Assembly (NCBI RefSeq): GCF_004362895.1
Contig: NZ_SNXI01000002.1
Span: 62,001-126,000 of the forward strand
Length of the DNA: 64,000 bases
Reading direction: 5' to 3'
Source: Idiomarina aquatica
Lineage (GTDB): Bacteria > Pseudomonadota > Gammaproteobacteria > Enterobacterales > Alteromonadaceae
Shown: positions 6,920 to 42,502 of the stretch, piece by piece
Layout of the letters: each line of letters opens with the position of its first letter
Position numbering within the stretch: position 1 is the first letter of the stretch
The notes under the pieces: model-generated
Databases searched by the model: none
What the model saw: the letters and a program-made list of their open reading frames with translations, nothing else
What the model was told of the DNA's origin: nothing
Program-made: the position numbers and the translations under genes

Positions 6920-7650
6920 AGCGTTGGTGGTTGATTGCGGTTTATTTGCTGGCACTGCTGGTCATGTTACCGGCTAAAATTATTTATTGGTTGCCGATCC
7001 CTGCGCAGGTTTCGATAAGTCAGGTGTCCGGTAGTTTGTGGCAGGGGCGCATCGGTAGCTTACAAGTCCAGGGTGTAACACTTAATGACATGCAATGGGA
7101 TTGGCAACTGTTGCAGTTATTTACCGGAGAAGTGGCGGTAGATGTAAGGGTGCCGCCGCAAAACAATCCGTTAGCCGTTAATGGCCGCATTAGCGCTGGC
7201 TTAACTGAGCTGGCAGCAACTGACCTGCGTGCCAGCGGCGATCTTGCAACCTTATTGCAGCTCGCGAATACGCGCTTACCGTTAAAGACACAGGGTAACT
7301 GGAATCTTAGTATTGATACCTTCGTTGTTAGCGATCCAAGTCCGGCAAAATGGTGTAATCAACTGACAGGCAGCGCCAATGGCCGCAATATTCAGGTATT
7401 AGTAAACGGCGCCTGGCAAAGTCTTGGTGACTTTCCGGTTGCCTTGGGTTGCGCTGAATCGGGAGCGGTGACACTGACGATGAACGGCGAAAACAGCCTC
7501 GGTCTGGCGATGCAGGGTGACATCAACAGTCAGGATATTAATATCAGTGGCACCGTCCGCCCCAACCCACGAACCCCGGAAGGGCTGGCACAAATGTTCC
7601 AGTACCTCGGCCAGCCGGATAGTCAGGGCCGCTATCGGTTCTCGCTTTAG
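6916..7650 (+). CDS. gspN: Type II secretion protein GspN
   Basis: This 244-residue accessory protein of the secretion operon has an N-terminal signal anchor (WWLIAVYLLALLVMLPAKII) and the GspN pattern ISQVSGSLWQGRIGSLQVQG followed by WDWQLL. It is not essential in all systems, and its role is poorly defined. The start overlaps gspM (ATGA). The TAG stop codon at 7648-7650 is the first part of the following hairpin array (TTTAGGCTC), so the gene ends on the repeat. Confidence 0.93.
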   Translation: MKRWWLIAVYLLALLVMLPAKIIYWLPIPAQVSISQVSGSLWQGRIGSLQVQGVTLNDMQWDWQLLQLFTGEVAVDVRVPPQNNPLAVNGRISAGLTELAATDLRASGDLATLLQLANTRLPLKTQGNWNLSIDTFVVSDPSPAKWCNQLTGSANGRNIQVLVNGAWQSLGDFPVALGCAESGAVTLTMNGENSLGLAMQGDINSQDINISGTVRPNPRTPEGLAQMFQYLGQPDSQGRYRFSL

Positions 7651-7765
7651 GCTCGTTGGCGCTCGCGGGGCAGGCGCTTCGCGCGGTTTGGGCTCGTGCT
7701 TCGCACTCGCGGTTTAGGCTCCGGCTGCGCCGTCGCGGCTTAGGGCCTTCGGCCGGTGTAAGCTC
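7648..7765. repeat. Family A hairpin array after gspN
   Basis: This is a run of short palindromes separated by a near-constant CGCGG-TTTAGGC spacer. In order: a CTCG...CTCGCGG unit, GCGC-TTC-GCGC, GTGC-TTC-GCAC, GGC-TGC-GCC and GGCC-TTC-GGCC. Each would form a small stable hairpin in RNA. The first three bases after TT are the stop codon of gspN. The same modules recur in six other gaps in this window. Confidence 0.85.
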
Positions 7766-7850
7766 GTTTTGCTGTTTGGCTTTTGTGTTTGACGAAATTC
7801 GCGGCTGTGGTAGTTTATCGAAACATTCTGTTACATAAGGAAGTAACCCT

Positions 7851-8669
7851 ATGCAGGCTATTATTGATTGGATTAATAACAATCAGGGTATGCTGATTGA
7901 ATACAGCATCAAGGTGATTATCGCCATTATTATTATGGTGGTAGCGAGCATTGCTTCGCGTGTATTAACTGGTGTGATGCGCAAAGGCATGACCAAGCGC
8001 GAAGTTGATGGCGCAGTTATTGGTTTCTTGTCTGCTATTATCAAGTCACTGATTTTTATCGCTGCATTGATGGTAGCGTTGAATCAAGTCGGCGTAGAAA
8101 CTACGTCATTTATCGCCATCTTAGGTGCGGCCGGTTTAGCGATTGGTTTAGCACTGCAAGGGTCACTATCCAACATTGCTTCGGGCGTATTACTGATCAT
8201 GTTCCGACCGATGCGTGCAGGCGAATATGTTGAGTGCGGCGGTACTGCGGGTACAGTCGAAGAAATTAATATCTTCCAGACCATTCTGAAAACACCGGAC
8301 CGTAAAGTGGTTTACGTACCAAATTCACAGGTTATTGGCAGTGCTATCGTTAACTACAATCGCGAAGATATTCGCCGCATCGATCTGGTTATCGGTGTAA
8401 GCTACAGCGCTAACCTTCAGCACACCAAAAAGGTGTTAATGGAAGAGCTGGAAAAAGACGAGCGTATCCTGGAAGACCCGGCGCCGGTTGTAACAGTAAC
8501 CGCGTTAAATAGCTCGTCGGTAGACTTTAACGTGCGTCCATGGACTAAAACCGAAGATCACTGGCCGACCCGTTGGGACCTGCTGGAACGCATCAAAGAC
8601 CGCTTAGACGAAGAAGGCATCGGCATCCCATTCCCACAAATGGATGTGCATATGCACAAAAACCAGTAG
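7851..8669 (+). CDS. mscS: Small-conductance mechanosensitive channel MscS
   Basis: This inner-membrane channel opens under membrane tension to release osmolytes during hypo-osmotic shock. It has 272 residues against 286 in E. coli. Three membrane helices are visible, with the pore helix TM3 carrying the glycine/alanine-packed GLAIGLALQGSLSNIASGVL, followed by the MFRPMRAGEYV junction to the beta domain. The start is supported by AAGGAAG about eight bases upstream. The end is a double TAG, the second of which belongs to the following family A repeat. Confidence 0.95.
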   Translation: MQAIIDWINNNQGMLIEYSIKVIIAIIIMVVASIASRVLTGVMRKGMTKREVDGAVIGFLSAIIKSLIFIAALMVALNQVGVETTSFIAILGAAGLAIGLALQGSLSNIASGVLLIMFRPMRAGEYVECGGTAGTVEEINIFQTILKTPDRKVVYVPNSQVIGSAIVNYNREDIRRIDLVIGVSYSANLQHTKKVLMEELEKDERILEDPAPVVTVTALNSSSVDFNVRPWTKTEDHWPTRWDLLERIKDRLDEEGIGIPFPQMDVHMHKNQ

Positions 8670-8875
8670 TAGGCTCCGGCTTCGCCGTCGCGGGTTAGGC
8701 TTGTGCTTCGCACTCGCGGTATAGAGCTTCGCTGGTTTGGGCTCGCTACGCTCGCGCTATACCGGCCAAAGGCCCTACCCCGCGAGCGCAGCGAGCCTAA
8801 ACCCCGTGCGCCGAAGGCGGCACGCTACACCGCGAGTGCGAAGCACAAGCCCGACCCGCGAGCGCAGCGAGCCTA
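8670..8875. repeat. Family A array between convergent mscS and metY
   Basis: The left half reads forward (TAGGCTCC..., GTGC-TTC-GCAC, CTCGCTACGCTCG) and the right half reads as the reverse complement of the same modules (GCGAGCGCAGCGAGCCTA, GCGAGTGCGAAGCAC). The whole gap is therefore a long imperfect inverted repeat made of small hairpins. The outermost bases on both sides are stop-codon sequences, TAG of mscS (plus strand) and TAG of metY (minus strand). It may serve as a two-way transcript end. Confidence 0.85.
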
Positions 8876-11091: not shown

Positions 11092-11142
11092 AACCACCTC
11101 CTATCTGAAACTGCACAATCGCAAATAGCATTCCAGCTGTCA

Positions 11143-11158
11143 AGATGTTTAGACGTCT
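11143..11158 (-). promoter_or_regulatory. MetJ-type operator (tandem met boxes) upstream of metX-metY
   Basis: There are two adjacent 8-mers, AGATGTTT and AGACGTCT. The second is the exact MetJ consensus met box, and the first matches at six of eight positions. Weaker 8-mers may extend the array on the left side. It lies about 50 bases upstream of the metX start, where a repressor using S-adenosylmethionine as corepressor would act. The met box consensus is established knowledge; its use here is inferred from position. Confidence 0.65.
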
Positions 11159-11400: not shown

Positions 11401-11412
11401 GAGCATAAAAGC

Positions 11413-11441
11413 TTGCGCGAAATCGCACAGATATGTATAAT
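11413..11441 (+). promoter_or_regulatory. Sigma-70-type promoter of guaBA
   Basis: A perfect -10 TATAAT (11436-11441) lies 17 bases after TTGCGC (11413-11418, four of six matches to the -35 consensus). Transcription would begin near 11448, giving a ~30-base leader before the guaB ATG with its GGAG site. A short inverted repeat TGCG...CGCA sits between the two hexamers and could be an operator, but its regulator is not evident. Confidence 0.6.
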
Positions 11442-11456
11442 CCACGCGCAACATGA

Positions 11457-12976: not shown

Positions 12977-14554
12977 ATGACTCAAGATATTCATGATCAT
13001 CGCATACTGATTTTAGATTTCGGCTCGCAATACACGCAGTTGATTGCCCGCCGTATTCGTGAAATTGGCGTTTACTGTGAACTATGGGCGTGGGATGTCG
13101 ACGACCAGGACATCAAAGATTTTGCGCCCAAAGGCATTATTTTGTCGGGTGGGCCGGAAAGCGTTACCGAAAAAGACTCGCCGCGGGCGCCTGACTATGT
13201 GTTTGAGGCCGGTGTACCGGTGCTGGGTGTATGCTATGGCATGCAGACCATGGCGCATCAGCTGGGTGGTTCAGTACAGGGATCGTTAGAGCGTGAATTT
13301 GGCTACGCGCAAATCGAACTGGTGGAAAAAAGCCCATTATTTGAAGCTATCGAAGACGCGGTTAGCGAATCCGGTGCGCCGTTGCTGGACGTTTGGATGA
13401 GCCATGGCGATAAAGTCGATGCCATTCCGGAAGGCTTCCACACCGTTGCCAAGACGTCTTACTGTCCGTTCGCTGCGATGGCGGATGAACAACGCCGTTT
13501 TTACGGCGTGCAATTCCACCCGGAAGTAACTCATACCCGTCAGGGCATGCGCATGCTGGAGCATTTTGTCAGCGGCATTTGTGGCTGTGAGAAGAACTGG
13601 ACGCCGGCGCAGATTATTGATGATGCGATTGAGCGTATCCGCGAACAAGTGGGCAGCGACAAAGTCATTTTAGGCCTGTCAGGTGGCGTTGATTCATCGG
13701 TCACCGCCATGTTGCTACACCGCGCAATTGGCGAGCAGCTAACCTGTATTTTCGTTGATAATGGTTTGCTGCGCTTGAATGAAGCCGAGCAGGTGATGGA
13801 AATGTTTGGTGACCATTATGGCCTGAATATTATGCCGATCGCTGCTGAAGATCGCTTTCTGGATGCGCTGAAAGGCGAGAACGATCCCGAGAAGAAGCGT
13901 AAAATTATCGGCAATACCTTTATCGAGATTTTCGACGAAGAAGCGGCTAAGTTGACCGAGGTTGACTGGTTGGCGCAGGGTACTATTTACCCGGATGTGA
14001 TCGAATCAGCTGGTTCAAAAACCGGTAAGGCGCATGTGATTAAATCACACCATAACGTGGGTGGCTTACCGGAGGACATGAAACTGGGCTTGGTTGAGCC
14101 ACTACGTGAATTATTTAAAGACGAAGTGCGTAAAATCGGTCTGGAACTGGGTCTGCCGTATAACATGCTTTATCGCCATCCGTTCCCGGGACCGGGTCTG
14201 GGTGTGCGCGTACTGGGCGAGATCAAAAAAGAGTACTGCGACTTACTGCGCCGTGCCGATGCGATCTTTATCGAAGAGCTGCACAATGCGGACTGGTATC
14301 ACAAAGTCAGCCAGGCTTTTGCGGTATTCCTGCCGGTGCGTTCAGTGGGCGTGATGGGTGATCAGCGTAAATATGACTGGGTTATCGCCATCCGCGCCGT
14401 CGAGACTATCGACTTTATGACCGCACGCTGGGCACATCTGCCTTACGAGCTGCTGGAAAAGGTCTCTAACCGTATTATCAACGAGGTCAACGGCATCTCG
14501 CGGGTAACTTACGATATTTCCGGTAAACCCCCAGCCACTATTGAATGGGAGTAG
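12977..14554 (+). CDS. guaA: GMP synthase (glutamine-hydrolysing)
   Basis: This enzyme converts XMP to GMP using glutamine and ATP. It has 525 residues, as in E. coli. The N-terminal class I amidotransferase has its catalytic cysteine C86 in GVCYGMQ and the HPEVTHT histidine/glutamate pair. The ATP pyrophosphatase domain has the PP-loop LSGGVDSSV near residue 233, and the C-terminal dimerisation domain ends PPATIEWE. The TAG stop abuts the next family A array (GAG-TAG-GGCC). Confidence 0.97.
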
Positions 14555-14695
14555 GGCCTACGGCCGGTTTGGGCTCGTGCTTCGCACTCGCGGTATAGGC
14601 TTGCTTCGCTCGCGGTTTAACGGCCGTAGGCTCTATACCGCGAGTGCGCAGCACGAGCCTAAACCGGCGCAGCCCTAAACCGCGCGAAGCGCCTA
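14552..14695. repeat. Family A array between convergent guaA and xseA
   Basis: Forward modules (GGCC-TAC-GGCC, GTGC-TTC-GCAC, CTTGCTTCGCTCGCGG) are followed by their reverse complements (GCGAGTGCGCAGCACGAGCC, GCGCGAAGCGCCTA). The forward GTGC-TTC-GCAC unit with its CGCGGTATAGGC spacer pairs with the reverse copy at about 14632-14660, so the gap can fold into one long imperfect hairpin. Confidence 0.85.
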
Positions 14696-16018
14696 TCATT
14701 CCGTTCGGGCTTTGAGTTCGCCTTTGGCTAATCGGATGTTCAATTCCGTGCCTGCCGGAGCCTGCTGGCTATCCCGAATAACCTTGCCTTGCTCATCGCG
14801 CACAATGGCGTAGCCGCGTTCGAGGGTGTTTAGCGGGCTGACGATATTCAGTGCTTGAAAGATGCTGCGTTGCTGCTCGGTTTTTTGTTTAAGCAATCGG
14901 GTAATGGCGGGGCTTAAGCGCTGTTGCAGGTCACTCAAACGGCTTTGGTAACGCGCCAGATCTTTTTGTGGGTGTAGCGCCTGTAGCCGGCTCTGGAAAT
15001 AGCTTTCACGCTGCAGCAACCGTTGTAATTGCGACTGCATCGCACGGGTTGCACGTGCCTGTAGCTCATCGGCGCGTTGCGCTTGCTGCTGTAACTGACG
15101 CTGCGGATGCTGTTGCTGTAAACGGATTTGTAAATGGCGGAACTGCTGCTGGCTTTGGGTAATTTTACGCTGTTGCGCCAACATCAGTCGCTGATGCAGT
15201 GCTCTCAACTGTTCCCGACTCTGGCTACGGTCTTTACTGACCACCTCGGCTGCAGCCGACGGCGTTGGCGCACGCAGGTCGGCGATAAAGTCGCAAATGG
15301 TAAAGTCAATTTCGTGGCCGACGGCGCTGATCACGGGCATCGGTGCATCAATTAACATCCGTGCCACGCCTTCGTCATTAAAGCACCACAAATCCTCAAT
15401 CGAACCTCCACCCCGGCCGACAATCAAAACATCAACTTCGTTGCGGTTAAACGCGCTTTGCAGCATGTGTTTTAGCTGCGGAATAGCGGCTTCGCCCTGC
15501 ACACTGCTGGGGTAAATAATGACTTCCAGTTGTGGATCGCGACGTTTGATTACCGCTAAAATATCCTGAATAGCAGCGCCGGTAGGGGAGGTCACCACGC
15601 CAACACGGCGGATAGACTCAGGAAGCGGGCGTTTACGTTCGTTAGCAAACAGCCCTTCGGCGGACAATTTGGCTTTAAGCTGCTCAAACTGCTGCTGCAG
15701 TAAACCCTGGCCGGCATCTTCAATGTGCTCGACAATCAGCTGATAATCGCCGCGCGGGGCATAAACGGTCACCCGCGCACGCACTAAAACCTGCACGCCG
15801 TTTTGCGGGCGTATCTTAGCGCGCTGGTTATTGCCGCGGAACATGGCACAGCGGATCTGCGCTTTATCGTCTTTAAGGGTAAAGTACCAATGGCCCGAGC
15901 CCGGCGCAGCAAAGTTAGACACCTCACCCACCAGCCAGACATTGCCAAACTGCTGTTCCAGCGCCGCGCGAATGTCGTTGTTAAGTTTTGATACCGAGTA
16001 AATATCCATCATGCTCAC
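14696..16018 (-). CDS. xseA: Exodeoxyribonuclease VII large subunit
   Basis: This is the large subunit of exonuclease VII, which degrades single-stranded DNA in both directions; the small subunit XseB is encoded elsewhere. It has 440 residues. The N-terminal OB fold includes NVWLVGEVSNF and GHWYFTLKDD. The catalytic core has VVTSPTGAAIQDI, GRGGGSIEDLWCFN and SAVGHEIDFT, and a long Gln/Arg-rich coiled coil (about residues 270-370) precedes the C-terminal domain. The start lies within a hairpin array, and two further in-frame ATGs follow within the first four codons. The TGA stop is immediately followed by TAGGCGC of the next array. Confidence 0.96.
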   Translation of the reverse strand: MSMMDIYSVSKLNNDIRAALEQQFGNVWLVGEVSNFAAPGSGHWYFTLKDDKAQIRCAMFRGNNQRAKIRPQNGVQVLVRARVTVYAPRGDYQLIVEHIEDAGQGLLQQQFEQLKAKLSAEGLFANERKRPLPESIRRVGVVTSPTGAAIQDILAVIKRRDPQLEVIIYPSSVQGEAAIPQLKHMLQSAFNRNEVDVLIVGRGGGSIEDLWCFNDEGVARMLIDAPMPVISAVGHEIDFTICDFIADLRAPTPSAAAEVVSKDRSQSREQLRALHQRLMLAQQRKITQSQQQFRHLQIRLQQQHPQRQLQQQAQRADELQARATRAMQSQLQRLLQRESYFQSRLQALHPQKDLARYQSRLSDLQQRLSPAITRLLKQKTEQQRSIFQALNIVSPLNTLERGYAIVRDEQGKVIRDSQQAPAGTELNIRLAKGELKARTE

Positions 16019-16024
16019 TTTGTT

Positions 16025-16243
16025 CGCGTTGTCGGCTCGCTGCGCTCGCGGTGTAGACGCTTGGCGTGGGATAGGCTCGCTCTGCTCGCGGTGTGGGCGC
16101 TACGCGCGGTTTAGGCTCGCTTCACTCGCGGTATACCGGCCGAAAGCCTTAAACCGCGCGAAGCGCCTACACCGCGAGCGCAGCGAGCCTAAACCGTGAG
16201 TGCGCAGCACGAGCCCAGCCCGCGAAGGCCCAGCCTGAGCCTA
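16025..16243. repeat. Family A array between xseA and the EEP-family gene
   Basis: CTCGC-type and GCGC-type modules read forward up to about 16130, then reverse modules (GCGCGAAGCGCC, GCGAGCGCAGCGAGCC, GTGAGTGCGCAGCACGAGCC) run to the stop codon of the leftward gene at 16241-16243. The two neighbours point the same way, so the symmetric layout is not simply a result of convergent transcription. Confidence 0.83.
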
Positions 16244-26855: not shown

Positions 26856-27317
26856 ATGCAACAGAACCAAGATGAAACATACATGCGGCGGGCGTTGGAG
26901 CTGGCGGCTAAAGCAGCAGCAGAGGACGAGGTGCCGGTGGGGGCTGTGTTGGTTATGGACGACGAGATTGTCGGCGAAGGCTACAATCAGGTCATTACCT
27001 TATCCGACCCGTCCGCCCATGCCGAAGCTCAGGCCATTCGCGCTGCCGGTCAGGCGATAGATAATTACCGTCTGGTTAACTCTACTCTGTATGTCACGCT
27101 TGAACCCTGTGCCATGTGCGCCGGGCTGATTACTCATGCGCGGGTTAAACGGCTGGTGTTTGGTGCACCCGATCCCCGCACCGGCGCCACCGGCACCGCC
27201 ATCGAAGTTCTCAACCACAGCTCCATGAACCACAAAGTCGAGATCCAGGCCGGCGTGCTCGCCGACGAGTGCGGCGACATCCTGCGCCAATTCTTCCGCG
27301 CCCGCCGCAAGAAGTAG
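26856..27317 (+). CDS. tadA: tRNA-specific adenosine deaminase TadA
   Basis: This enzyme deaminates adenosine-34 of tRNA-Arg(ACG) to inosine. It has 153 residues, and the zinc site is complete: H55-A-E57 with the proton-shuttle glutamate, and P84-C85-A-M-C88. The LVFGAPDPRTGATGTA segment is typical of TadA and separates it from cytidine deaminases. Its TAG stop (AAG-TAG-GTCGCG) is formed by the GTAG of a family B element. Confidence 0.95.
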   Translation: MQQNQDETYMRRALELAAKAAAEDEVPVGAVLVMDDEIVGEGYNQVITLSDPSAHAEAQAIRAAGQAIDNYRLVNSTLYVTLEPCAMCAGLITHARVKRLVFGAPDPRTGATGTAIEVLNHSSMNHKVEIQAGVLADECGDILRQFFRARRKK

Positions 27318-27371
27318 GTCGCGTCCTGACGCGACAACTTCCACACGTGCGTCAGGACGCACGGTACGGAT
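27315..27371. repeat. Family B REP pair after tadA
   Basis: A left hairpin (GTAG then GTCGCGT-CCTG-ACGCGAC) and an opposed right hairpin (GTGCGTC-AG-GACGCAC followed by GGTACGG) are separated by about ten bases. This is the basic opposed-pair layout of the family in this window. Confidence 0.88.
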
Positions 27372-27447: not shown

Positions 27448-27754
27448 GGTGTCACTTGCAACGCCTGCCAAAGCTGCTAAAAAAATCGCCCGTAATGTTC
27501 GCGAGCGGCGCCTGCAGTTAGAACTAACGCAAGCCGGGTTGGCAAAACGCTCAGGCGTGCCTTTGCCAACGCTGCGTAAGTTTGAACAACAGGGCACGAT
27601 TTCATTGGAGTCATTCCTAAAACTCTATTCAGTAGTTGGCGATTTGAGCGATGTAATTGCGGCGACAACAGCGGAAAAAAACGAATTTACTTCTATAAAC
27701 GAGGTGCTCGAAGAGTCGAATAGGGTTCCTCGGCAGAGGGGTAAACGGCAATGA
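27446..27754 (+). CDS. hipB: HipB-like antitoxin (Xre-family helix-turn-helix)
   Basis: This 102-residue DNA-binding protein is the likely antitoxin and repressor of the pair. The helix-turn-helix spans residues ~17-70 (RERRLQLELTQAGLAKRSGV then LPTLRKFEQQG), followed by a short acidic tail ending RQRGKRQ. It overlaps hipA by four bases (ATGA), the standard arrangement. Assignment rests on domain and context. Confidence 0.85.
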   Translation: MVSLATPAKAAKKIARNVRERRLQLELTQAGLAKRSGVPLPTLRKFEQQGTISLESFLKLYSVVGDLSDVIAATTAEKNEFTSINEVLEESNRVPRQRGKRQ

Positions 27755-32360: not shown

Positions 32361-33716
32361 TTGCTTGCTCGTAAGGTATTGATTTTATTGGGGCTGATGC
32401 TGCTTTCGGCGTGTAGCCCGCAGCAGAAACCCGACCAATTAACTGTCGTCAAAGAACGTCAGGTGTTGCGGGTGGGTACCCTTATGAACCCGACCAGCTA
32501 CTACTTTGACCACGACCGCGAGCAGGGTTTTGAGTATGACCTGGCGAAGCGATTTGCGGCGCGCATGGGCGTGGAATTGCAAATGGTGCCGCGTTTTGAC
32601 GTCAACGACTTATTTACCTTGTTGCGCCGAGGGGATGTTGACCTGGTTGCCGCCGGGCTTGATCGCACGGCGTCGCGCGATACGCTTTATCGTTTTGGCC
32701 CGCCGTACGACATCATCAGCCAAAAACTAGTCTTTAAACAAGGTTCACGTCAGCGCCCGCGCGATCTGGAGCAAGTCACCGACGGCGAAATCGTGGTGGT
32801 TGCAGGTAGTTCACACCACGAATATTTAAAAAGTCTGGGCGATAGCGTGCCGACATTAAATTGGCGCGCCACCCGCGATCATGACGCGGTAGAGCTGCTG
32901 CGAATGGTCGCCAGAGATGAAATCGATTACACCATCGCCGATAGCAATCAGCTGGAAGTTCAGCGTCGCGCTTACCCGGGCTTAAGCATTGCTTTTACGG
33001 TAAAACAAGAACAACCCGTGGCCTGGGCGCTGTCGGCAGGTACTGATGATTCGCTTTATAGCGCGGTCATTCAATATTTTGGTGAAATCCGCAGCAGTGG
33101 CCGGCTGGCTTACATCAAAGAGCAGCACTTTGGGCATGTAAAGCAGTTCAACTATGTAACCACCAGCTTGTTTATCGAAGCCGTAAAAAGCGACCTGCCT
33201 CAGTATATCGACATGTTTAAAGAACACGCGGGCACACTGGATTGGCGCTTGCTGGCTGCCATTTCGTACCAGGAATCATTGTGGAATCCGCGTGCTGTGT
33301 CGCCTACCGGGGTGCGCGGCATGATGATGCTGACGCTTCCCACCGCTAAGGCAATGGGTGTTAAAAGCCGGCTGAACGCAGAACAAAGCATTCGCGGTGG
33401 TGCGCGTTACCTTGAACGTATGCTGCGCCGAGTACCGGCTCGGATACCGGAGCCGGACAGAACCTGGTTCGCACTGGCCGCCTATAATATTGGCTTTGGC
33501 CATCTAGAAGACGCGCGAGTACTGACCGAAGTGCAGGGCGGCAACCCCGATCGCTGGCTGGACGTGAAACAACGCTTACCGTTATTACGTAAAAAAGAAT
33601 TTTATCGGCAAACCAAATTTGGCTTTGCCCGCGGCGATGAGCCGGTAACCTACGTCGGTAATATCCGCCGCTTTTACGACACCCTAAAGTGGTTGGATGA
33701 ACAAGGCAGGCTGTAG
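32361..33716 (+). CDS. mltF: Membrane-bound lytic murein transglycosylase F
   Basis: This outer-membrane lipoprotein cleaves peptidoglycan. It has 451 residues: a lipoprotein signal with lipobox LLSAC, a periplasmic solute-binding-like domain (~30-265, VLRVGTLMNPTSYYF, GFEYDLAKRFAARMG), and a SLT lysozyme-like domain (~290-440) with the catalytic glutamate in ISYQESLWNP and GVRGMMMLT. The start must be TTG 32361: a stop codon lies seven codons upstream and no ATG gives a complete signal peptide. The TAG stop is formed by a GTAGGTCGCGCC hairpin. Confidence 0.93.
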   Translation: MLARKVLILLGLMLLSACSPQQKPDQLTVVKERQVLRVGTLMNPTSYYFDHDREQGFEYDLAKRFAARMGVELQMVPRFDVNDLFTLLRRGDVDLVAAGLDRTASRDTLYRFGPPYDIISQKLVFKQGSRQRPRDLEQVTDGEIVVVAGSSHHEYLKSLGDSVPTLNWRATRDHDAVELLRMVARDEIDYTIADSNQLEVQRRAYPGLSIAFTVKQEQPVAWALSAGTDDSLYSAVIQYFGEIRSSGRLAYIKEQHFGHVKQFNYVTTSLFIEAVKSDLPQYIDMFKEHAGTLDWRLLAAISYQESLWNPRAVSPTGVRGMMMLTLPTAKAMGVKSRLNAEQSIRGGARYLERMLRRVPARIPEPDRTWFALAAYNIGFGHLEDARVLTEVQGGNPDRWLDVKQRLPLLRKKEFYRQTKFGFARGDEPVTYVGNIRRFYDTLKWLDEQGRL

Positions 33717-33735
33717 GTCGCGCCTCTGGCGCAAG

Positions 33736-34230
33736 TCATAGCGTAAGTTCGCTGTAACTGAAGTTAGCGCGGACTTTCTTTTGCATCCATTCGAGTAACA
33801 CAAAGCAACGAGACTCGCCGTCGAGCTCGACGATTTTAGCCATATAGCCGCGGAACGGGCCTTCTTTTATTTCTACCGAGTCGCCAACTTGCGGGGCGTC
33901 AGACTCCGCGGCAGCGTCCATGCTCCTCAAATCGTCAATCCATGACTGCGGAATAGTTGGAATGGAGTCGCCAAATTTAAGCACGTTATTAACGCCAAAG
34001 GTATTGCGCAACTTATAAAATTGCTCAATTAAGTTATCCGGGCGCACAAACACATAGCCGGGAAACATTGGCTCGACGCTACTCGTTCGTTTACCGCGAC
34101 GCACTTTCTTAACGGTAAGTTTTGGCCCAAACACCTCAAAACCCTGGTTATCCAGACTTTGAATTGCCCGTTCATCCTGGCGTGGCTTGGTTTTTAAAAC
34201 GTACCATGCATCAGAGGTAAGCGCTTCCAT
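33736..34230 (-). CDS. rfaH: Transcription antitermination protein RfaH
   Basis: This NusG paralogue reduces termination in long surface-polysaccharide operons after recruitment at ops sites. It has 164 residues: an NGN domain beginning AWYVLKTKPRQDERAIQSL and including EPMFPGYVFVRP, a linker, and a C-terminal KOW-type domain (VGDSVEIKEGPFRGYMAKI). ATG 34230 was chosen over an upstream frame extension because GGAG lies eight bases before it. The large glycan operon from 48.7 kb onward is a natural target, although I found no clear ops element in the window. Confidence 0.92.
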   Translation of the reverse strand: MEALTSDAWYVLKTKPRQDERAIQSLDNQGFEVFGPKLTVKKVRRGKRTSSVEPMFPGYVFVRPDNLIEQFYKLRNTFGVNNVLKFGDSIPTIPQSWIDDLRSMDAAAESDAPQVGDSVEIKEGPFRGYMAKIVELDGESRCFVLLEWMQKKVRANFSYSELTL

Positions 34231-34333
34231 TCGGTCAACTCCATAACATTCGAATGAATTTAACAACTGACTATAAAGAATTGGCACTGATGATCAGATG
34301 ATTAATCGTTTAAATTGAGTCGAACGCGTCAGC

Positions 34334-34438: not shown

Positions 34439-34573
34439 ATGCGTAAAATCCGTAAAACCGCCAATGACGCCCGCCGCCGCGCTGTCATCCGCAAACGTCG
34501 CAAACGCATCACCGAACGTCGCGAAAAATGGTTCCGCATCGTGCAAAAAGACGGTAGTGCCAAAATCGAGTAG
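34439..34573 (+). CDS. Very basic 44-residue small protein
   Basis: This short reading frame has a good ribosome site (GGAG six bases before ATG 34439). The product has 12 Arg and 7 Lys among 44 residues, with MRKIRKTANDARRRAVIRKR at the N-terminus and a single Trp. An in-frame ATG at 34415 is less likely. It resembles no family I can name; a nucleic-acid- or ribosome-associated protein is possible on composition alone. The TAG stop (GAG-TAG-GCTCG) starts the next family A array. Codon use is GC-rich, as in neighbouring genes. Confidence 0.6.
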   Translation: MRKIRKTANDARRRAVIRKRRKRITERREKWFRIVQKDGSAKIE

Positions 34574-34765
34574 GCTCGCTTCGCTCGCGGGGTAGGCGCT
34601 TCGCGCGGTTTAGGCTCCGGCTGCTCCGTCGCGGTATAGCATGCCGCCTGCGGCGCATGGGTGTAGGCTCCCTGCGTTCGCGCAAACCACGAGCGTAGCG
34701 AGTCTATACCGCGACGGCGCAGCCGGAGCCTATCCCGCGAGCGCAGCGAGCCTAAACGCATTCCA
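34571..34765. repeat. Family A array between the small basic gene and purL
   Basis: Forward modules CTCGCTTCGCTCGCGG, GCGC-TTC-GCGC, GGC-TGC-TCC and TGCCGCC-TGC-GGCGCA are followed by reverse modules GAGCGTAGCGAG, GCGACGGCGCAGCC and GCGAGCGCAGCGAGCC. It ends about 60 bases before the purL GTG start, so it is also a 5' neighbour of an essential gene. Confidence 0.83.
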
Positions 34766-34827: not shown

Positions 34828-37800
34828 GTGGAAATATTTCGTGGCGCACCAGCCTTATCCGCCTTTAAAATTACCAAGAAATTGGCACAACTTAAGCAGG
34901 CGGGGCTCCCCGTCACCGGGCTTTACGCCGAATATCGACACTTTGTTAATCTCGACTCACCACTCTCCGACGCGCAGCGCGAGACGCTGACTAAATTACT
35001 GACCTATGGCCCAACCGCCGACAGTAGCGTGCGTCCTGACGCACGTAAAAATGAGTCAGATGACGAGCGTCAGGACGCACGCTACGTACTAATAACCCCA
35101 CGCCTTGGCACCATCAGTCCCTGGGCGTCAAAAGCTACCGACATTGCCCATAACTGCGATTTAAACAACATTCATCGCATAGAGCGCGGTATCGCTTACT
35201 TTATTGAAGGGGACTTATCCGGCGAAGAGCTTAAACAGGCTGCGGCGTTGTTGCATGACCGCATGACCGAATCGGTGCTTTATCACGAGCAAGACGCTGA
35301 AAAACTGTTTGAAAAACACCAACCCAAGCCGTTGTCGAATGTGGATATTCTGGCCGGTGGCCGCGCGGCCTTAGCCGACGCCAATATTAATTTAGGGCTG
35401 GCGCTGGCGGATGACGAAATCGACTACCTGGTCGAGAACTTCGAAAAGTTGGGCCGTAACCCTAACGACATCGAACTCTATATGTTCGCGCAGGCCAACT
35501 CAGAGCACTGCCGCCACAAAATTTTCAACGCCGACTGGACTATCGATGGTATCGAGCAGCAGAAATCGCTGTTTAAAATGATCAAAAATACCTACGAAGT
35601 CACTCCGGATTACGTGTTGTCGGCCTATAAAGACAACGCCGCGGTAATGGAAGGGCACGAAGGCGGGCGCTTTTATCCCGCGAGTGCGCAGCACGAGCCT
35701 AAGCCGCAAGCGCAAAGCGCGAGCCGAAACCGCGACGGCGCAGCCGGAGCCTACACATACCACCACGAACCCATCCACATTTTGATGAAGGTCGAAACCC
35801 ATAACCACCCCACGGCCATTTCGCCATACCCGGGGGCTGCGACCGGTTCCGGTGGTGAGATCCGCGACGAAGGCGCTACCGGTGTCGGCTCTAAACCGAA
35901 AGCGGGCTTAGTCGGCTTTAGCGTGTCGAACCTGAATATTCCGGGCTTTAAACAACCGTGGGAAGAAGACTACGGCAAACCGGCGCGTATTGTTACCGCG
36001 CTGGATATTATGCTGGAAGGGCCGTTAGGCGGCGCGGCGTTTAACAATGAGTTCGGGCGGCCGGCATTAACGGGGTACTTCCGTACTTTTGAGCAAACCG
36101 TAAACAGTCATAACGGCCGCGAAATGCGTGGTTATCATAAACCGATCATGATCGCCGGCGGCTTAGGCAATATTCGCGAAGCGCACGTGCAAAAGGGCGA
36201 TATCCCGGTTGGCGCGAAGCTGGTCGTGCTAGGCGGCCCGGCGATGAACATTGGCTTAGGCGGTGGTGCCGCTTCGTCAATGGCATCGGGCGAATCTAAC
36301 GAGGATTTGGATTTCGCGTCAGTGCAGCGAGAAAACCCAGAAATGGAACGCCGCTGCCAGGAAGTGATCGATCGCTGTTGGCAGCTGGGCGCTGAAAACC
36401 CCATCGCTTTTATCCATGATGTGGGCGCGGGCGGTTTATCCAACGCTATGCCGGAGTTAGTCAGCGATGGTGGCCGTGGCGGTAAATTCGAGCTGCGTGA
36501 TATCCCTAATGACGAACCTGGCATGACGCCACTGGAAATCTGGTGTAACGAATCGCAGGAACGCTACGTGATGGCAATTGCGCCGGAGAACCTGGCACGG
36601 TTTGAAGATATTTGTGCCCGCGAGCGAGCAGAGTATGCGGTTATCGGTGAAGCCACCGAAGAGCTGACCATTTTGCTTAACGATGCCAAGTTCCAGAATC
36701 AGCCGATTGATTTGCCGCTGGATGTGTTGCTGGGTAAGCCACCGAAGATGCATCGCGATGTTGCTACATTAAAAGCCGAAGGCGAGCCTCTACAGTTTAA
36801 AGGCGTCACGCCTTTGGAAGCTGCCGAGCGTTTAATGCGCCTGCCAAGCATTGCCGAGAAAACGTTCTTAATTACCATCGGTGACCGCAGTGTCACCGGT
36901 CTGGTGAACCGTGACCAAATGGTCGGCCCGTGGCAGATCCCGGTGGCTGACGTGGCAGTGACAGCGGCTAGTTACGATACGTATCACGGCGAAGCTATGG
37001 CCATGGGTGAGCGCACGCCGCTGGCACTGTTAAACTATGGCGCGTCGGCACGCATGGCCGTGGGGGAAGCACTCACTAACCTGGCAGCTGCTGATGTTGG
37101 TGAACTAAAACGCATTAAAATGTCGGCAAACTGGATGGCGGCAGCCGGACATCCGGGGGAAGATGCCGGTTTATACGAAGCGGTAAAAGCGGTCGGCGAA
37201 GAGCTTTGCCCGGCGCTGGGTATCAGTATTCCGGTGGGTAAAGATTCGATGTCGATGAAAACCCAGTGGCAGGATAACGGCGAGGACAAAGCAGTAACGG
37301 CGCCGATGTCACTGGTTATTACCGCCTTTGCGCGCGCTAACGATGTGCGCAACACTCTAACACCGCAGTTGCGCCTGGATAAAGGCCGTACGCATCTGTT
37401 ACTGGCAGACCTCGGTCATGGCAAAAACCGCCTGGGTGCCTCGGCGCTGGCGCAGGTGTTCCAGCAGTTTGGTACCGATACGCCGGATCTTGATGATGCC
37501 GCTGAATTCAAAGCGTTTTTCGAAACCACCCAGCAATTAATCGCCGAAGGGCGCTTGTTGGCCTATCACGACCGCTCTGATGGTGGCCTATTTACCACCC
37601 TCGCCGAAATGGCCTTTGCCGGGCATTGTGGTGTGGATATTCAGCTTGATGATGTAGTAGGTCGTGCCTTTGGCACGACAGCAGAAGAAACCATGGCCGT
37701 TCTGTTCGCCGAAGAACTCGGCGCAGTCCTGCAAGTCACCGATGAGCAGTTACAGCACGTCATCAAAGCTTACGACATGGCCGGGGTCGGCCACTTGGTC

Positions 37801-38838
37801 TACAACATTGGCCAGCCAACCGACAAAGACGAATTAAACTTTAGCCTGGACGGTAAGCAAGTGCTTACTGGATCGCGCACACACTTCCGCACGCTGTGGG
37901 CGGAAACCACGCACCAGATGCAGCGTTTACGTGATAACCCGGTATGCGCTGACGAGGAGTTCCAGCTTAAGCAACGTGCAGATAACCCCGGCTTACTAGC
38001 TGACCTGAGCTTTGACGTGCACGAAGATATTGCAGCTCCTTACATCGCAAAAAGTGCGTCAGGGGCGGCACCGCGAGTTGCGATTTTGCGTGAGCAGGGC
38101 GTTAACTCGCACTACGAAATGGCAGCAGCCTGGGACCGTGCCGGTTTTGAGGCCATCGATGTGCACATGAGCGACATTCTGGCCGGACGCATTGATTTAG
38201 CCGACATGCAGGCGCTGGCAGCATGTGGCGGGTTCTCATACGGTGACGTACTGGGCGCCGGTGAAGGCTGGGCAAAATCTATTTTGTTCAATAGCCGCGC
38301 CCGCGATCAGTTCGAAGCTTTCTTTAACCGCGATGACACGCTGGCATTAGGTGTGTGTAACGGCTGCCAGATGTTGACGGCACTGAAGGAGCTAATCCCG
38401 GGCACCGAACACTGGCCGCGGTTTGTGACTAACCGCAGTGAGCGTTTTGAAGCGCGCTTTAGCCTGGTCGAAGTGCCCGAGTCTAACTCTGCCTTCTTTG
38501 CCGGTATGGCCGGTTCGCGCATGCCAATCGCGGTCTCGCACGGCGAAGGCCGCGCGGAATTTGCTAACGCGGTGCAGCAAAGCCAGTTACAAAACGCCGG
38601 TCAGGTAGCACTACGCTATATCAACAATTGGGGCGAGGTGACCGAGAGTTATCCGTGTAATCCGAACGGTAGCCCTAACGGTATTACCGCGGTGACCAAT
38701 GATGACGGTCGCTTTACCGCCATGATGCCGCATCCCGAGCGCGTGTTCCGCACCGTAGCCAACAGCTGGCACCCCGATCAGTGGGGCGAAGACAGCCCCT
38801 GGATGCGCCTGTTCCGCAACGCCCGCACACGTTTTTAG
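34828..38838 (+). CDS. purL: Phosphoribosylformylglycinamidine synthase with repeat-derived insertions
   Basis: This enzyme converts FGAR to FGAM in purine synthesis using glutamine and ATP. It has 1336 residues, about 40 more than the E. coli enzyme. It is complete: PurS-like N-terminus, two AIR-synthase-like halves ([24 protein letters not shown]), and a C-terminal glutamine amidotransferase with catalytic C1177 in LGVCNGCQ and PHPE. The GTG start has GGAGA seven bases upstream. Extra residues coincide with repeats: a REP pair at ~66-86 (nt 35024-35085), family A modules at ~287-310 (nt 35686-35757), and one hairpin near residue 945 (nt 37657-37679). The frame is intact throughout, so the gene is probably functional. 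The TAG stop is on a family A array. Confidence 0.96.
35024..35085. repeat. Family B REP pair inside purL
   Basis: This is a complete 62-base element bounded by GTAGCGTGCG at the left and its exact complement CGCACGCTAC at the right. The GTAG falls as aGT-AGc in the purL frame, so no stop codon arises. It encodes [20 protein letters not shown], between segments that are contiguous in E. coli PurL as I recall it. Confidence 0.88.
35686..35757. repeat. Family A modules inside purL
   Basis: These are reverse-orientation modules GCGAGTGCGCAGCACGAGCC, GCAAGCGCAAAGCGCGAGCC and GCGACGGCGCAGCCGGAGCC, with TAAG/AAAC spacers. They are read in frame as a Pro/Gln/Ser/Ala-rich loop ([20 protein letters not shown] and on) just before the conserved [17 protein letters not shown]. 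Confidence 0.88.
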
Positions 38839-39110
38839 GCTTCGGCTTCGCCTCCGCGGGATGGGCTCGCTTCGCTCGCGGTGTAGGGCTGCGCCGGTTT
38901 AGGCTCGCCCTGCGGGCTTCGCGGTTCGGGCTCGTGCTTCGCACTCGCGGTGTAGGGCTGCGCCGGTTTAGGCTCGCTTCGCTCGCGTAAACCACGAGCG
39001 CAGCGAGTCTACACCGCGAAGCCTAAACCGCGCGCAGCGCCTACCCACGAGCGCAGCGAGTCTATACCGCGAAGCCTAGACCGCGCGTAGCGCCTACCCC
39101 GCGAAGCCCA
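38836..39110. repeat. Family A array after purL (longest in the window)
   Basis: About six forward modules (GGC-TTC-GCC, CTCGCTTCGCTCGCGG, GGC-TGC-GCC, CCTGCGGG, GTGC-TTC-GCAC, and repeats) run to ~38990. Reverse modules then follow (GAGCGCAGCGAG twice, GCGCGCAGCGCC, GCGCGTAGCGCC). The TTTAG at the left is the purL stop. The gap to the next gene (39203) holds no other feature. Confidence 0.85.
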
Positions 39111-39202
39111 CGAAGGTAAAGCTTTAGTAAAGAGCTTGCGTTCGCCTCCGATCCCCCGTAATACTTTGTTACATATTCCAATCCCGAAGACAGGAGGCAA
39201 TC

Positions 39203-40945
39203 ATGCGTTTTGCTAAATCCCTAATTGCACTGACCGTAACAACGGCACTAACCGCGTGTGGTGGCTCTGACTCATCAGACACTAACGTTTCTAACCCGCC
39301 ACCGGGCGATGACAATACCGGCAGCACCACAACCACGGTATACACTGAAGGTGTGATCACCGGCTTTGGCAGCGTCTACGTTAATGGTCAGCGTTATCGC
39401 TCCGAAAATGCCGACATTGCATTAGCCAACAATCCCGCTGCCACCGAAGGCGACCTGAAAGTGGGTATGGTCGTATCACTTGCGGCGTCAGAGTCAAACA
39501 ACGGTGACGACCCCGAAGCAACTAACATCCGCTACGAGGAACACCTGCAAGGGCCTATTAGTTTTATCGATACCGAAGCAGAAGTTATCGAAATATTAGG
39601 TCAACGAGTGGTTTATAACGACTTAACTGAATTTGACGAAGTGGCGTTAGCAGACCTAACCATTGGCGATATCATCGAAGTGAGTGGTTACATCAATGAA
39701 GAAGGTGACTTTTACGCCACCCGCATCGAGCTAGAAAACGATGAAGAAGAATTTAAGTTGAAAGGCGATGTCACGGCGCTCGATACCAGCGCGCAAACAT
39801 TTATGATTAACGAACTGACCATCGACTACAGCAGCGCTGAATTTGACGATATGAGCGCAGCCGATCTGGAAGATGGTTTATATGTAAAAGTCGAGGGTAC
39901 CGAGTTTGATGCCGAGACGCTGACGCTGGTCGCGACGGATGTTGAAAACAAAGACAACAACGTGGATGACTATGACGACGCTGACGAAATCAAAATTGCG
40001 GGTATCGTCAGCAACTACGATGAAGCGACCGGTACCTTTGATGTCAATCAATACAGCTTTACTGTTAACGACGATACAGAGTTTGAAGATGGCTCCGCCT
40101 CGCGTTTGGTGAACGGGGCGCGGGTAAAAGTCGAAGCAGAGTATGATGGTGAGCAACTGGTTGCGGAAGAAATCGAGTTTATCGCGAAAAGTGCGCGTAA
40201 TGTCAGCGAAGGCCAGGTCACGGCAGTCGATGCTGAAGCGCAAAGCTTTACCGTCAATGGCATCACCTTCGTGGTCGATGATGACACCAGTTACCTGGAT
40301 ACTTCAGGACAGGGCGCGCGGACGTTCAATTATGAAGACATCGCGGTTAATGATTGGCTTAAGGTCATTGCGGTAATCGACTACAATGGTGATTACGTCG
40401 CATTGAAAATTAAACGCACTGACGAAGACGATCGCGACGGTGAAATTAAAGGCGTCGCCAGTGACGTTAGTCTGGAAGGTATGACCGTCGCTGGTGTTCA
40501 GGTCAGCTTTAACGAGCAAACCGAATTTGAAGATGAAGACGACCTGAGCATCGACGAGTTCGTTGCGCTGTTCAGTGACGATACCGAACTGCAGGTTGAG
40601 GTCGAAGGTGACTATGACGGTGATATTCTCATCGCCAGCGAAGTCGAAATTGAACGTGAAGATGACGAAGACGACGATGATGACAACGATGACGGAGATG
40701 ACGACAACGCCAATGACAAGCGCGGCAAAGCCGAGTTTGAAGGCGCAGTTGAATCTATCGATGGTGAGTCAGTTATCGTCAACGGCTATGAGTTGCGTTT
40801 TAGCAGCGACAGCGAACTCGAGATTGACGATGAAGAAGTCAGCCTTGAAGACTTTCTCGCCGCTTTAGAAGTCGGCAGCATCATCGAAGTCGAAGGCATC
40901 TGGCGCAACCAAACCTATATCGAGGTAAAAGAAGCCGAACTGTAG
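39203..40945 (+). CDS. Acidic lipoprotein built of repeated DUF5666-like modules
   Basis: This 580-residue exported lipoprotein has its lipobox at LTACGG. The mature part consists of about seven ~65-residue modules of the form G-x-(V/I)-x-x-(I/L/V)-D...(V/I)NG, then a Thr-rich strand, then a V-x-V-E-(G/A) strand and a short tail, resembling small OB-like barrels (DUF5666). An Asp-rich stretch (EDDEDDDDDNDDGDDD, about residue 490) joins the last two modules and could bind cations. Function is unknown. The stop TAG comes from a family B element (CTG-TAG-GTCGCG). Upstream is AGGAGG before ATG 39203. Confidence 0.78.
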   Translation: MRFAKSLIALTVTTALTACGGSDSSDTNVSNPPPGDDNTGSTTTTVYTEGVITGFGSVYVNGQRYRSENADIALANNPAATEGDLKVGMVVSLAASESNNGDDPEATNIRYEEHLQGPISFIDTEAEVIEILGQRVVYNDLTEFDEVALADLTIGDIIEVSGYINEEGDFYATRIELENDEEEFKLKGDVTALDTSAQTFMINELTIDYSSAEFDDMSAADLEDGLYVKVEGTEFDAETLTLVATDVENKDNNVDDYDDADEIKIAGIVSNYDEATGTFDVNQYSFTVNDDTEFEDGSASRLVNGARVKVEAEYDGEQLVAEEIEFIAKSARNVSEGQVTAVDAEAQSFTVNGITFVVDDDTSYLDTSGQGARTFNYEDIAVNDWLKVIAVIDYNGDYVALKIKRTDEDDRDGEIKGVASDVSLEGMTVAGVQVSFNEQTEFEDEDDLSIDEFVALFSDDTELQVEVEGDYDGDILIASEVEIEREDDEDDDDDNDDGDDDNANDKRGKAEFEGAVESIDGESVIVNGYELRFSSDSELEIDDEEVSLEDFLAALEVGSIIEVEGIWRNQTYIEVKEAEL

Positions 40946-41078
40946 GTCGCGTCCTGACGCGACAAAGACAAACCGACGTATTTTAGGTCGCGTCCTGACG
41001 CGACAGAAGTCGCCAACCGTGCGTCAGGACGCACGGTACGAAACCGCGTGCGTGCCACGTGCGTCAGGACGCACGCTA
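40943..41078. repeat. Family B REP cluster between the DUF5666 gene and the RAYT gene
   Basis: Two forward hairpins (TAGGTCGCGTCCTGACGCGA, twice) and two reverse hairpins (GTGCGTC-AG-GACGCAC) are present. The left edge supplies the stop codon of the DUF5666 gene and the right edge (CTAC, read on the other strand as GTAG) supplies that of the transposase gene. Confidence 0.9.
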
Positions 41079-41624
41079 CTCGTCATAGGATGCGAAGCAG
41101 TCGACTGTCCAGGTTTCATTGATAAATTGCCAGCTGTCGGGATACCGGCCGCTGGCAATACCGTTTCGTAACGTCGAATAGCGCCAATCTATCGCGTTTT
41201 TAACGTATCCATGCTTTACCGGGTTAAAGCAACAGTACAACGAGTACATGTACAATTCTTTTTCACTCCTGATCATATGGTCATAAAACCGGTTGTGCCA
41301 AAGCGTGCCCTGCACGCGCTTGTATTTAGACGCATTGCGTTGGCTCTTGGCACTAAAATCTGGTAGAGCCCGGGTTGTAAAGGACTTTATGCGTTTTACC
41401 CGCTCATCAAACTGGTTATCATCAACACGGATAATAAAATGCATATGATCTGGTAAAACAACCCACGCCTGAATTTTGAAGGGGTGTGTACTCATCGTCC
41501 TTTTAACTGCAGCGCGAAGCGCCTGTATTACCTCTGGCCTGGTCAACACAGGGCGTCGATTTTGCGTCGATACCGTGATAAAGCAATAGCAACTCTCGTT
41601 AAAGTGACGCCGCACATTTTTCAT
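41076..41624 (-). CDS. REP-associated tyrosine transposase (RAYT, Y1 HUH family)
   Basis: This single-strand nickase-like protein is related to IS200/IS605 transposases and in other bacteria acts on REP hairpins with a GTAG foot. It has 182 residues. The HUH metal site is LPDHMHFI (H60, H62). The probable catalytic tyrosine is Y130 in LYCCFNPVKHGY. LWHNRFYDHMIRSEKEL is typical of the family. ATG 41624 was chosen for the AGGAGG site eight bases upstream, over a TTG at 41630. REP clusters border both sides, and its stop TAG is part of one. It is a single-copy-looking domesticated gene without IS-type ends of its own. Confidence 0.92.
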   Translation of the reverse strand: MKNVRRHFNESCYCFITVSTQNRRPVLTRPEVIQALRAAVKRTMSTHPFKIQAWVVLPDHMHFIIRVDDNQFDERVKRIKSFTTRALPDFSAKSQRNASKYKRVQGTLWHNRFYDHMIRSEKELYMYSLYCCFNPVKHGYVKNAIDWRYSTLRNGIASGRYPDSWQFINETWTVDCFASYDE

Positions 41625-41639
41625 ATTCAATTCCTCCTT

Positions 41640-41775
41640 GCTGTACGTGCGTCAGGACGCACGCTACGAAACTTTTTACGTGCGTCAGGACGCACGCTAC
41701 GAAACCCTTTACGTGCGTCAGGACGCGACAAAACCACGAAACCCTGTAGGTCGCGTCCTGACGCGACAAAACGAC
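41640..41775. repeat. Family B REP cluster upstream of the RAYT gene
   Basis: Three reverse hairpins (ACGTGCGTCAGGACGCACGC), the third truncated at its right arm to GCGACAAAA, are followed by one forward hairpin (GTAGGTCGCGTCCTGACGCG). With the cluster at 40943-41078 it encloses the transposase gene. Confidence 0.9.
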
Positions 41776-41867
41776 GCCCTCTTTTGCAAAACCTTTACGC
41801 CTTCAACCCTAGTCGTGGCAGCAATAAACGCCATAATACAAAGACGTATTTAAAAGGAGGCAGTACC

Positions 41868-42368
41868 ATGAAAAAGTTAATTGGATTAACCGCTATTTTG
41901 GCCGTTAGCATTGCAGCGACAGCAGAGGCGCAAGACCGCACCTATGTCAGCGGTGGCTACAACGATTTCGGCGATTCGGACTTCTTTATCAAGGCTTCGC
42001 GCCAGTTGGATCGCAACTGGGTTATTGAAGCCGAAGCCTTTGATATCGGTGATGTCGGTTTGCGAGCCGGTGGTCAGTATTTGTTCAATAACTCACCGGT
42101 ATTTATCCGTGGCGGTGTCAGCCATTATGACTTCGGTCGCACTGATGATACCGGCGCTTATGCCGGTGTAGGTACCGTGCTGCCGTTAAGCACGCAGGCA
42201 ACCGCGATGTTCGATGCCAGCTATGACACAGCGCTGGATGGTTATGCATCGGTTGGTGCGTCAGTACGTTATAACTTCGACCAAAACTTCGCTGCCGACG
42301 TCGGCTTCCGTGGTAACTTTGACGACATCGACAACGAATTCCGGGTTGGTATAACCTACAAATTCTAG
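41868..42368 (+). CDS. Small outer-membrane beta-barrel protein
   Basis: This 166-residue protein has a signal peptide (KKLIGLTAILAVSIAATAEA) and alternating hydrophobic strands separated by short turns, ending in the aromatic VGITYKF typical of outer-membrane barrels. About eight strands can be counted, the size of an OmpX/OmpW-like or porin-family barrel. Its frame is open far upstream through the REP cluster, but AAAAGGAGG eight bases before ATG 41868 fixes the start. Function is unknown. The stop TAG is directly followed by TAGGTCGCG of the next element. Confidence 0.85.
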   Translation: MKKLIGLTAILAVSIAATAEAQDRTYVSGGYNDFGDSDFFIKASRQLDRNWVIEAEAFDIGDVGLRAGGQYLFNNSPVFIRGGVSHYDFGRTDDTGAYAGVGTVLPLSTQATAMFDASYDTALDGYASVGASVRYNFDQNFAADVGFRGNFDDIDNEFRVGITYKF

Positions 42369-42502
42369 TAGGTCGCGTCCTGACGCGACAAAGGCATAGC
42401 GCGTCTAATCGTAAGTCGCGTCCTGACGCGACAAAATAAACGTGCGTCAGGACGCACGGTACGAATAGCGCACAAGCCAAACGTGCGTCAGGACGCACGC
42501 TA
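42366..42502. repeat. Family B REP cluster between convergent barrel-protein and CsgG-like genes
   Basis: Two forward hairpins (TAGGTCGCG..., TAAGTCGCG...) and two reverse hairpins (GTGCGTC-AG-GACGCAC) are present. The right edge GCTAC supplies the TAG stop of the leftward gene. This mirrors the family A layout at other convergent pairs. Confidence 0.88.

Follow-up and report, generated by a model that had tools for sequence, protein, structure and literature searches.

According to a passage of Di Nocera et al. 2013 (PMC3733652), the GTAG foot of repetitive extragenic palindromes (REPs) often supplies TAG stop codons (the stop is called "opal" there; TAG is usually termed amber), and a passage of Nunvar et al. 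2010 (PMC2817692) places REPs immediately downstream of the stop of rayt, the gene for the REP-associated tyrosine transposase (RAYT). The GTAG/GTGG guide is described in two further papers (PMC6006769, PMC3686654), from the text of which the term 'stop codon' is absent. In the RAYT literature, GTAG is described as a guide that the element itself carries; cleavage at CT or CA has been demonstrated for a Marinomonas enzyme and is presumed for others (PMC8266576). In E. coli, a REP lying no more than 15 nt from a stop reportedly lowers translation (PMC12306157). Here, a 64,000-nt window of the Idiomarina aquatica genome (contig NZ_SNXI01000002.1, positions 62,001 to 126,000), in which two repeat families (A and B) supply the TAG stop codons of genes, was analyzed together with further samples of the same genome and of the genus.

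Repeat families and their position at stop codons

A first-pass annotation of the window had listed eleven genes whose TAG stop opens straight into a repeat, and on inspection this was so for all eleven (Table 1). It had also described two genes in which a TAG is followed by the TAG of the repeat, and these were found as described (7851-8669, which it named mscS, and the open reading frame (ORF) 41484-42368, its barrel gene). Out of 49 window ORFs chosen by hand for stop inspection, 16 ended in TAG, 12 of which opened into a repeat; the four repeat-free TAG ORFs were 4120, 25307, 60000 and 60889. Most ORFs without a flush repeat (29 of 33) ended in TAA or TGA, in line with the same annotation.

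Family B consists of a GTAG foot and a hairpin, often arranged as inverted pairs with the feet outward, an arrangement named REPINs. It is the GTAG REP with its RAYT, and the bases shared with the stops are, as had been proposed, the GTAG foot of REPs. Family A consists of arrays of tandem hairpin units of the form TAGG...CGGTN, about 16-26 nt each. Of the seven window arrays that were split into units, six have forward units followed by reverse units, which tends to leave a TAG edge pointing outward at either end, although certain edges are degraded; the gspN array has forward units only. A strict two-unit family A pattern matched only the source genome among 147 genomes of the taxonomic family, a result that says little because that set lacked G004 and G001, where looser rules find family A. 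Rfam gave no matches in the window at the gathering score, and no named family or description corresponding to family A was found in the literature searched, with most subscription journals outside coverage.

Stop codon use was counted in an 832-kb sample (about 28%, 663 genes) of the 2.95-Mb source genome (G000) and in 13 samples from the genus Idiomarina (2049 genes). Genes were called in-house with our own codon-usage script, by which short genes were missed (for example, the 44-codon gene and RAYT). In the source-genome sample, 24 genes had a hairpin 0-2 nt after the stop, and these ended in TAG (20), TAA (3) or TGA (1); outside the window TAG accounted for 17 of 20. The TAG share was 3/20 when the first hairpin lay at 3-9 nt, 14/53 at 10-29 nt, 9/62 at 30 nt or more, and 110/504 with no hairpin within 100 nt. 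Across the 13 samples, TAA, TAG and TGA were used 14, 68 and 3 times, respectively, at stops with family B (n = 85), 9, 23 and 3 times with family A (n = 35), and 912, 271 and 366 times in genes with no element (n = 1549). Genes with an element 3-60 nt away (240, 63 and 77; n = 380) had no TAG enrichment. TAG was thus not equally common with and without a repeat at the stop (68/85 and 23/35 versus 271/1549; Fisher tests against element-less genes, p 1e-33 for B and 7e-10 for A, orthologues not being independent). The base before the TAG was G at 59 of the 68 family B stops, and family A had no G preference (T 7, C 7, G 6 and A 3 before its 23 TAG stops). Leaving aside two hits in G005 that are probably due to chance, family A was found at stops in 3 of the 13 samples.

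The A and B classes follow a strict hairpin rule, which replaced a loose one (stem of 5, G-U allowed) that was dropped for its many false sites (163/2049 genes, TAG share 52%). Some doubtful rows were kept in the counts: G016 81173, assigned to B by the CCTGR rule though it has no hairpin; G003 purL, assigned to B by the same rule and consisting of TAA followed by CCTGA; and three class A rows that are probably chance (G000 266847 and two in G005). When repeats were defined instead by repetitive 11-mers, TAG ended 8/10 genes at offset 0, 3/7 at 1-3 and 12/25 at 4-12, relative to 120/574 genes without a repeat; this contrast is weaker, probably because REP stems vary. A contaminant contig behind the clustering on contig C2 was judged unlikely; most C2 pieces have 4-mer profiles similar to the rest, though the pieces with the window lie at the high end (0.13-0.23 versus 0.06-0.14 for other contigs).

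Since a GTAG hairpin flush with a stop almost implies that its foot is the stop, the position of all feet is a fairer test. A short palindrome immediately preceded by GTAG occurred at 297 sites in the 13 samples, 80 GTAG-footed hairpins being in the source-genome sample; the copies are numerous and mostly intergenic. The foot lay exactly at a stop in 52 cases, at +1 to +30 in 45, at 31-150 in 35 and farther away in 133; another 21 were deep in genes and 2 in the final 60 nt of a coding sequence, and for 9 there was no gene upstream on the strand. This is a spike of about 35-fold at offset 0 (52 feet versus about 1.5 per nt just downstream). Other feet were at stops in 3/122 (GTAA), 2/78 (GTGA), 3/69 (ATAG), 0/71 (TTAG) and 4/31 (CTAG) cases; GTAC (0/97) is no control, as it cannot be a stop. 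Chance as the cause of the coincidence is ruled out by the enrichment and the foot-position counts together. The repeat's own TAG is the gene's stop, as the annotation had claimed, far more often than neighboring positions predict and in frame, and the pattern is real and present in both sampled clades of the genus. In several species and with unrelated repeat families, this placement mostly leaves protein length unchanged: the end position was the same in 14/18 B and 8/10 A orthogroups.

Origin of the shared TAG

Insertion on stop codons and replacement of the old stop had been put forward as alternatives. Both routes found support and they are not mutually exclusive, and a mixed origin is probable, in which some elements were placed at existing TAG stops and others brought their own TAG. 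GTAG REPs and family A arrays lie at transcription-unit ends with outer-edge TAGs reading inward; a gene entering from either side meets a TAG first and, where in frame, uses it as its stop codon. By one route (perhaps about half of the cases), the gene would already have ended in TAG and the element would have come to lie exactly 3' of it, either by GTAG- or TAG-directed placement or by collapse between the stop TAG and a nearby downstream REP foot. By the other (presumably the rest), the element's TAG would have replaced TAA or TGA in place or shifted the stop by a few codons. By either route the result would be tolerated, since it hardly alters the protein.

That TAG often came first is suggested by the nearest element-less orthologues (at least 75% identity, one count per orthogroup), which ended in TAG in 14/28 orthogroups of TAG genes with an element (A 5/10, B 9/18), much as ordinary TAG genes keep TAG in their nearest orthologue (38/72); element-free orthogroups have 15% TAG. 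For about half of the orthogroups, repeat-free relatives show the same TAG, an outcome that the first-pass annotation had named as refuting its proposal. Among transcription-unit-end groups that are element-less in a clade here labeled clade 2 (G003, G017, G005, G015, G016, G002 and G011), a clade 2 orthologue ended in TAG in 9/13 groups with an element in the source genome's own clade and in 7/44 groups without one (p 0.0005). REP feet were divided between the stop and the next 30 nt as 30:10 in the own clade and 21:33 in clade 2 (51:43 together), in total much like GTAG without a REP (49:50 and 47:48, together 96:98); in a REP-poor outgroup, GTAG formed the stop 11 times, once with a hairpin, and occurred 5 times in the following 30 nt. 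The same stop was occupied in both clades in 6/105 orthogroups (2.2 expected, p 0.008), in 6/67 at transcription-unit ends (2.8 expected, p 0.025), and in 4/67 when TAG was required (1.3 expected, p 0.02). The GAG TAG end of the 44-codon gene carries a family A array in the source genome, a clade 1 REP in G001, clade 2 REPs in G015 and G005, and a degraded hairpin in G016; without an element the gene ends in TAA or TGA (G004, G008, G013 and G018). The guaA stop is TAG with an array in G000, G004 and G001, TAG without one in G017, and TAA in six relatives (G015, G005, G016, G018, G008 and G013), while element-less gspN orthologues stop at an unchanged residue, with TAA, TAG or TGA. One G017 gene has a REP at a GTAG stop where G003 has GTAG without a REP, which counts against the element having brought the TAG. 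It is possible, though on balance doubtful, that existing TAG stops are preferred landing or anchoring sites ('safe harbors') for unrelated palindromic repeat families. Elements of different clades would then end up at shared stops, those of the 44-codon gene, mltF and the 33736 gene being examples, and their spread would be channeled to the single position in a gene that absorbs a GTAG or TAG harmlessly.

Other comparisons point to elements that brought the TAG. The tadA product ends RARRKK, followed by the TAG in the REP foot; in ten relatives that lack a REP there, the frame runs 4-14 codons further, and in G001 and G004, which have REPs there, the stop is two codons earlier still. A 165-aa gene reads caA TGA in G016 and caG TAG with a REP in its relatives G005 and G015 (aaG TAG without a REP in G017, aaG TAA in G002 and G011), a 260-aa gene reads ccT TAA in G017 and ccG TAG with a REP in G003 and G015, and in a 355-aa gene the G017 stop lies within a REP, three codons short of the G003 TGA. 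Away from called stops, a 141-nt insertion in G015 brought a GTAG, and its empty site in G005 and G016 has none on that strand. In close pairs (at least 85% identity, the same genes being reused across species), TAA genes without an element within 60 nt faced TAG in 21/27 element-bearing partners versus 48/817 partners without, and TGA genes in 6/7 (B) versus 9/198. In orthogroups of mixed content (n = 42), TAG ended 51/76 element-bearing and 45/144 element-less genes, and 0 of 5000 label shuffles reached 51.

Several observations weigh against this mixed reading or against its proportions. In close pairs, TAG genes with an element faced TAG in 44/120 element-less partners (A 9/36, B 35/84), relative to 110/170 close partners of element-less TAG genes, so that the pair and orthogroup counts differ in where they point; more weight was given to the latter because pair counts reuse genes. 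Parsimony, on a tree set by hand from mltF identities and with few groups, gave 33.9 element gains, 20.2 of them from TAG, and of the 13.6 others 5.8 became TAG (10.4 of 132.7 non-TAG on element-less branches). The two routes cannot be apportioned, since loss of an element that leaves its TAG looks like TAG having come first. The reverse of the clade 2 test gave no effect (1/4 versus 12/44). Flush elements also occur at other stops (B, 14 TAA and 3 TGA of 85; A, 9 TAA and 3 TGA of 35), including four of the 49 window ORFs: 14696 (TGA, then TAGG), 27751 (TAA) and 33736 (TGA), both with the REP in the other orientation, and 43507 (TGA within a REP). Finally, a carried GTAG guide fits elements that carry their own TAG and offers no ready reason for targeting of GTAG.

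Insertion solely 3' of an existing (G)TAG, with stops simply offering the highest density of GTAG toward the ends of genes, is unlikely, although it is the best-placed of the single-cause explanations. It would account for the orthogroup count, for the one stop of the 44-codon gene common to three element families, and for a similar occupancy per GTAG at stops (30/79 in the own clade and 21/68 in clade 2) and just downstream (10/60 and 33/81). Against it stand the tadA truncation, the TAA and TGA empty sites in sister species, the absence of GTAG from the empty sites of the G015 insertion, the shortfall of 44/120 relative to 110/170, and the lack of a G preference in family A. The statement that insertion targets stop codons likewise has no established enzymatic basis, GTAG being a carried guide in the RAYT literature cited above (PMC8266576).

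Function, placement and the transposase

The first-pass annotation took the unit to act as stop codon plus transcript-end hairpin, and as an intrinsic terminator this was unsupported: a terminator-like site (G+C hairpin and T run) within 150 nt was found in 0/33 A and 7/44 B genes of the own clade, relative to 44/166 in the class with elements near (which holds terminators by definition) and 33/711 with no element. Selection for a stop and hairpin that tune the end of translation or mRNA 3' stability is rather improbable. Such selection would suit the position of the elements at transcription-unit ends (32/33 A and 42/44 B genes of the own clade, 74/77 in all, have a 60-nt gap or a convergent neighbor, versus 503/877 other genes) and the E. 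coli effect on translation; terminator-like sites are not enriched, however, and element content at the same stop varies between species.

Random, tolerated landing should spread feet over the last codons, with about two out-of-frame feet per in-frame one. The finding of only 2 feet in the last 60 nt means that placement was drawn to TAG or GTAG, that elements collapsed onto the stop, or that selection was very strict; random landing by itself is insufficient for exact in-frame placement. Collapse, in which a REP lands a few to tens of nt downstream and a deletion between the two (G)TAGs makes it flush, would explain the unchanged protein length and the TAG-first genes. At mltF, G015 and G005 have GTAGCC, 10 nt and GTAGCCTG, whereas G003 and G017 have a single GTAGCCTGAC at the stop, and these alleles suggest that a spaced REP may have collapsed onto the stop. 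As a general explanation collapse is improbable, given one clear locus at which the order of events is not polarised, and TAA or TGA to TAG changes that it leaves unexplained. Random landing with survival only of in-frame feet near the old stop is the least probable account: it draws on the TAA genes facing TAG in element-bearing partners and on shifted stops (tadA and others; in pairs of at least 85% identity, the end positions of B genes and element-less orthologues differ in 29% (n = 98), relative to 8% (n = 1035)), but it is strained already by the offset-0 spike with only 2 out-of-frame feet, and runs against the mostly kept end positions and TAG above background in the nearest element-less relatives.

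REPs flank the RAYT gene on both sides in the window, and its product matches Y1_Tnp. The exact REP core GTCGCGTCCTGACGCGAC has 18 copies in the genome, 12 of them in the window (27301-56772), and 7 of these lie within about 2.5 kb of RAYT at 41076. A RAYT match was present in 11/19 genomes, and in 4 of 5 examined the RAYT stop was the GTAG foot of a REP (G000, and G018, G013 and G009, whose RAYTs are about 65% identical to that of G000); that of G015 is TGA. RAYT relatives were found in G005 and G015 and none in G003, G016 or G017; sampled GTAG-footed hairpins numbered 23 and 71 in the first two and 42, 4 and 21 in the last three, respectively (sample sizes differ). The source genome contains a further RAYT relative at G000:C13:4645-5145, which is less closely related (43% identity). 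A CT just before GTAG was sought as a cut site and not clearly seen.

Features of the window and comparison with described systems

Pfam searches with 10 proteins supported the names gspN, metY, EEP, tadA, DUF5666, RAYT and CsgG and gave no match for the 41484-42368 product; guaA, mltF, purL and mscS are labels of the first-pass annotation only. The DUF5666 protein of the window matched Idiomarina aquatica at 75% identity.

Table 1. Repeat elements and associated stop codons in the 64-kb window
Feature	Position	Strand or orientation
gspN TAG stop and family A array, forward units	7648..7765	+
Family A array between 7851-8669(+) (TAG, then TAGG) and metY(-)	8667..8875	forward then reverse units
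metY TAG, edge of family A array	8873	-
Family A array between guaA(+) stop TAG (14552) and 14696-16018(-), whose stop TGA directly precedes the TAGG of the array	14552..14695	
Family A array, right edge the TAG of EEP(-) (16241)	16019..16243	
Two paired REPs (GTAG...GTAC), the GTAG foot serving as tadA stop	27315..27369	+
Imperfect REP; GTAG foot is the mltF stop; fills the 19-nt gap between mltF(+) and 33736-34287(-)	33714..33735	+
Family A array opening at TAG of 44-codon ORF 34439-34573 (ATG 34439)	34571..34757	
Family A array opening at purL TAG; right edge degraded	38836..39110	
REP cluster between DUF5666(+) and RAYT(-); GTAG feet are both stops (40943, 41076)	40943..41081	
RAYT (Y1_Tnp, IS200-like), itself stopping at a REP's GTAG foot	41076..41630	-
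REP cluster between 41484-42368(+) (TAG, then the REP's GTAG) and CsgG-like(-), whose stop is a GTAG foot (42500)	42366..42505	
REP with a GTAC foot, which the 43507-46479 gene reads through	43497..43524	-

The 43507 gene reads the GTAC foot in the TAG frame and stops 12 nt on, at a TGA in the hairpin loop; the loop thus offers a fallback stop in that frame. The gene at 27751-29013, HipA-like by Pfam, has its TAA followed by a REP in reverse orientation. Inside purL, reverse-oriented family A units (35672-35753) add about 20 residues to the translated product; a related insert is present in purL of G004 and absent from the ten other aligned relatives. The 25307-26695 gene ends in a GTAG (26693) without a hairpin, and its G004 and G001 orthologues have a REP at that GTAG, which in the source genome is possibly the footprint of a lost REP.

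The idea of a repeat serving as stop codon was anticipated for GTAG REPs; what is added is the second family (A) and the comparative evidence. A one-line remark on REPs thereby becomes a measured pattern in a usable system, a genus in which a given stop can carry different repeats in different species. It illustrates how stop codons can be altered and proteins shortened by mobile palindromes, which may also leave a TAG in place when they are lost, and it bears on differences in stop codon use between close relatives. The relevant passages of PMC3733652 and PMC2817692 hold no orthologue test of stop origin, the word "Idiomarina" is absent from the main text of both, and no such test was found in the literature searched (most subscription journals outside coverage). 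Family A resembles REPs in its hairpin units, in the TAGs at its outer edges and in its position at transcription-unit ends, and differs from GTAG REPs in having no GTAG preference and in its tandem units, mostly forward then reverse. The E. coli REPs near stops (PMC12306157) likewise place a hairpin directly 3' of the stop; that study counts how far beyond the stop the REP lies, whereas here the REP contains the stop.

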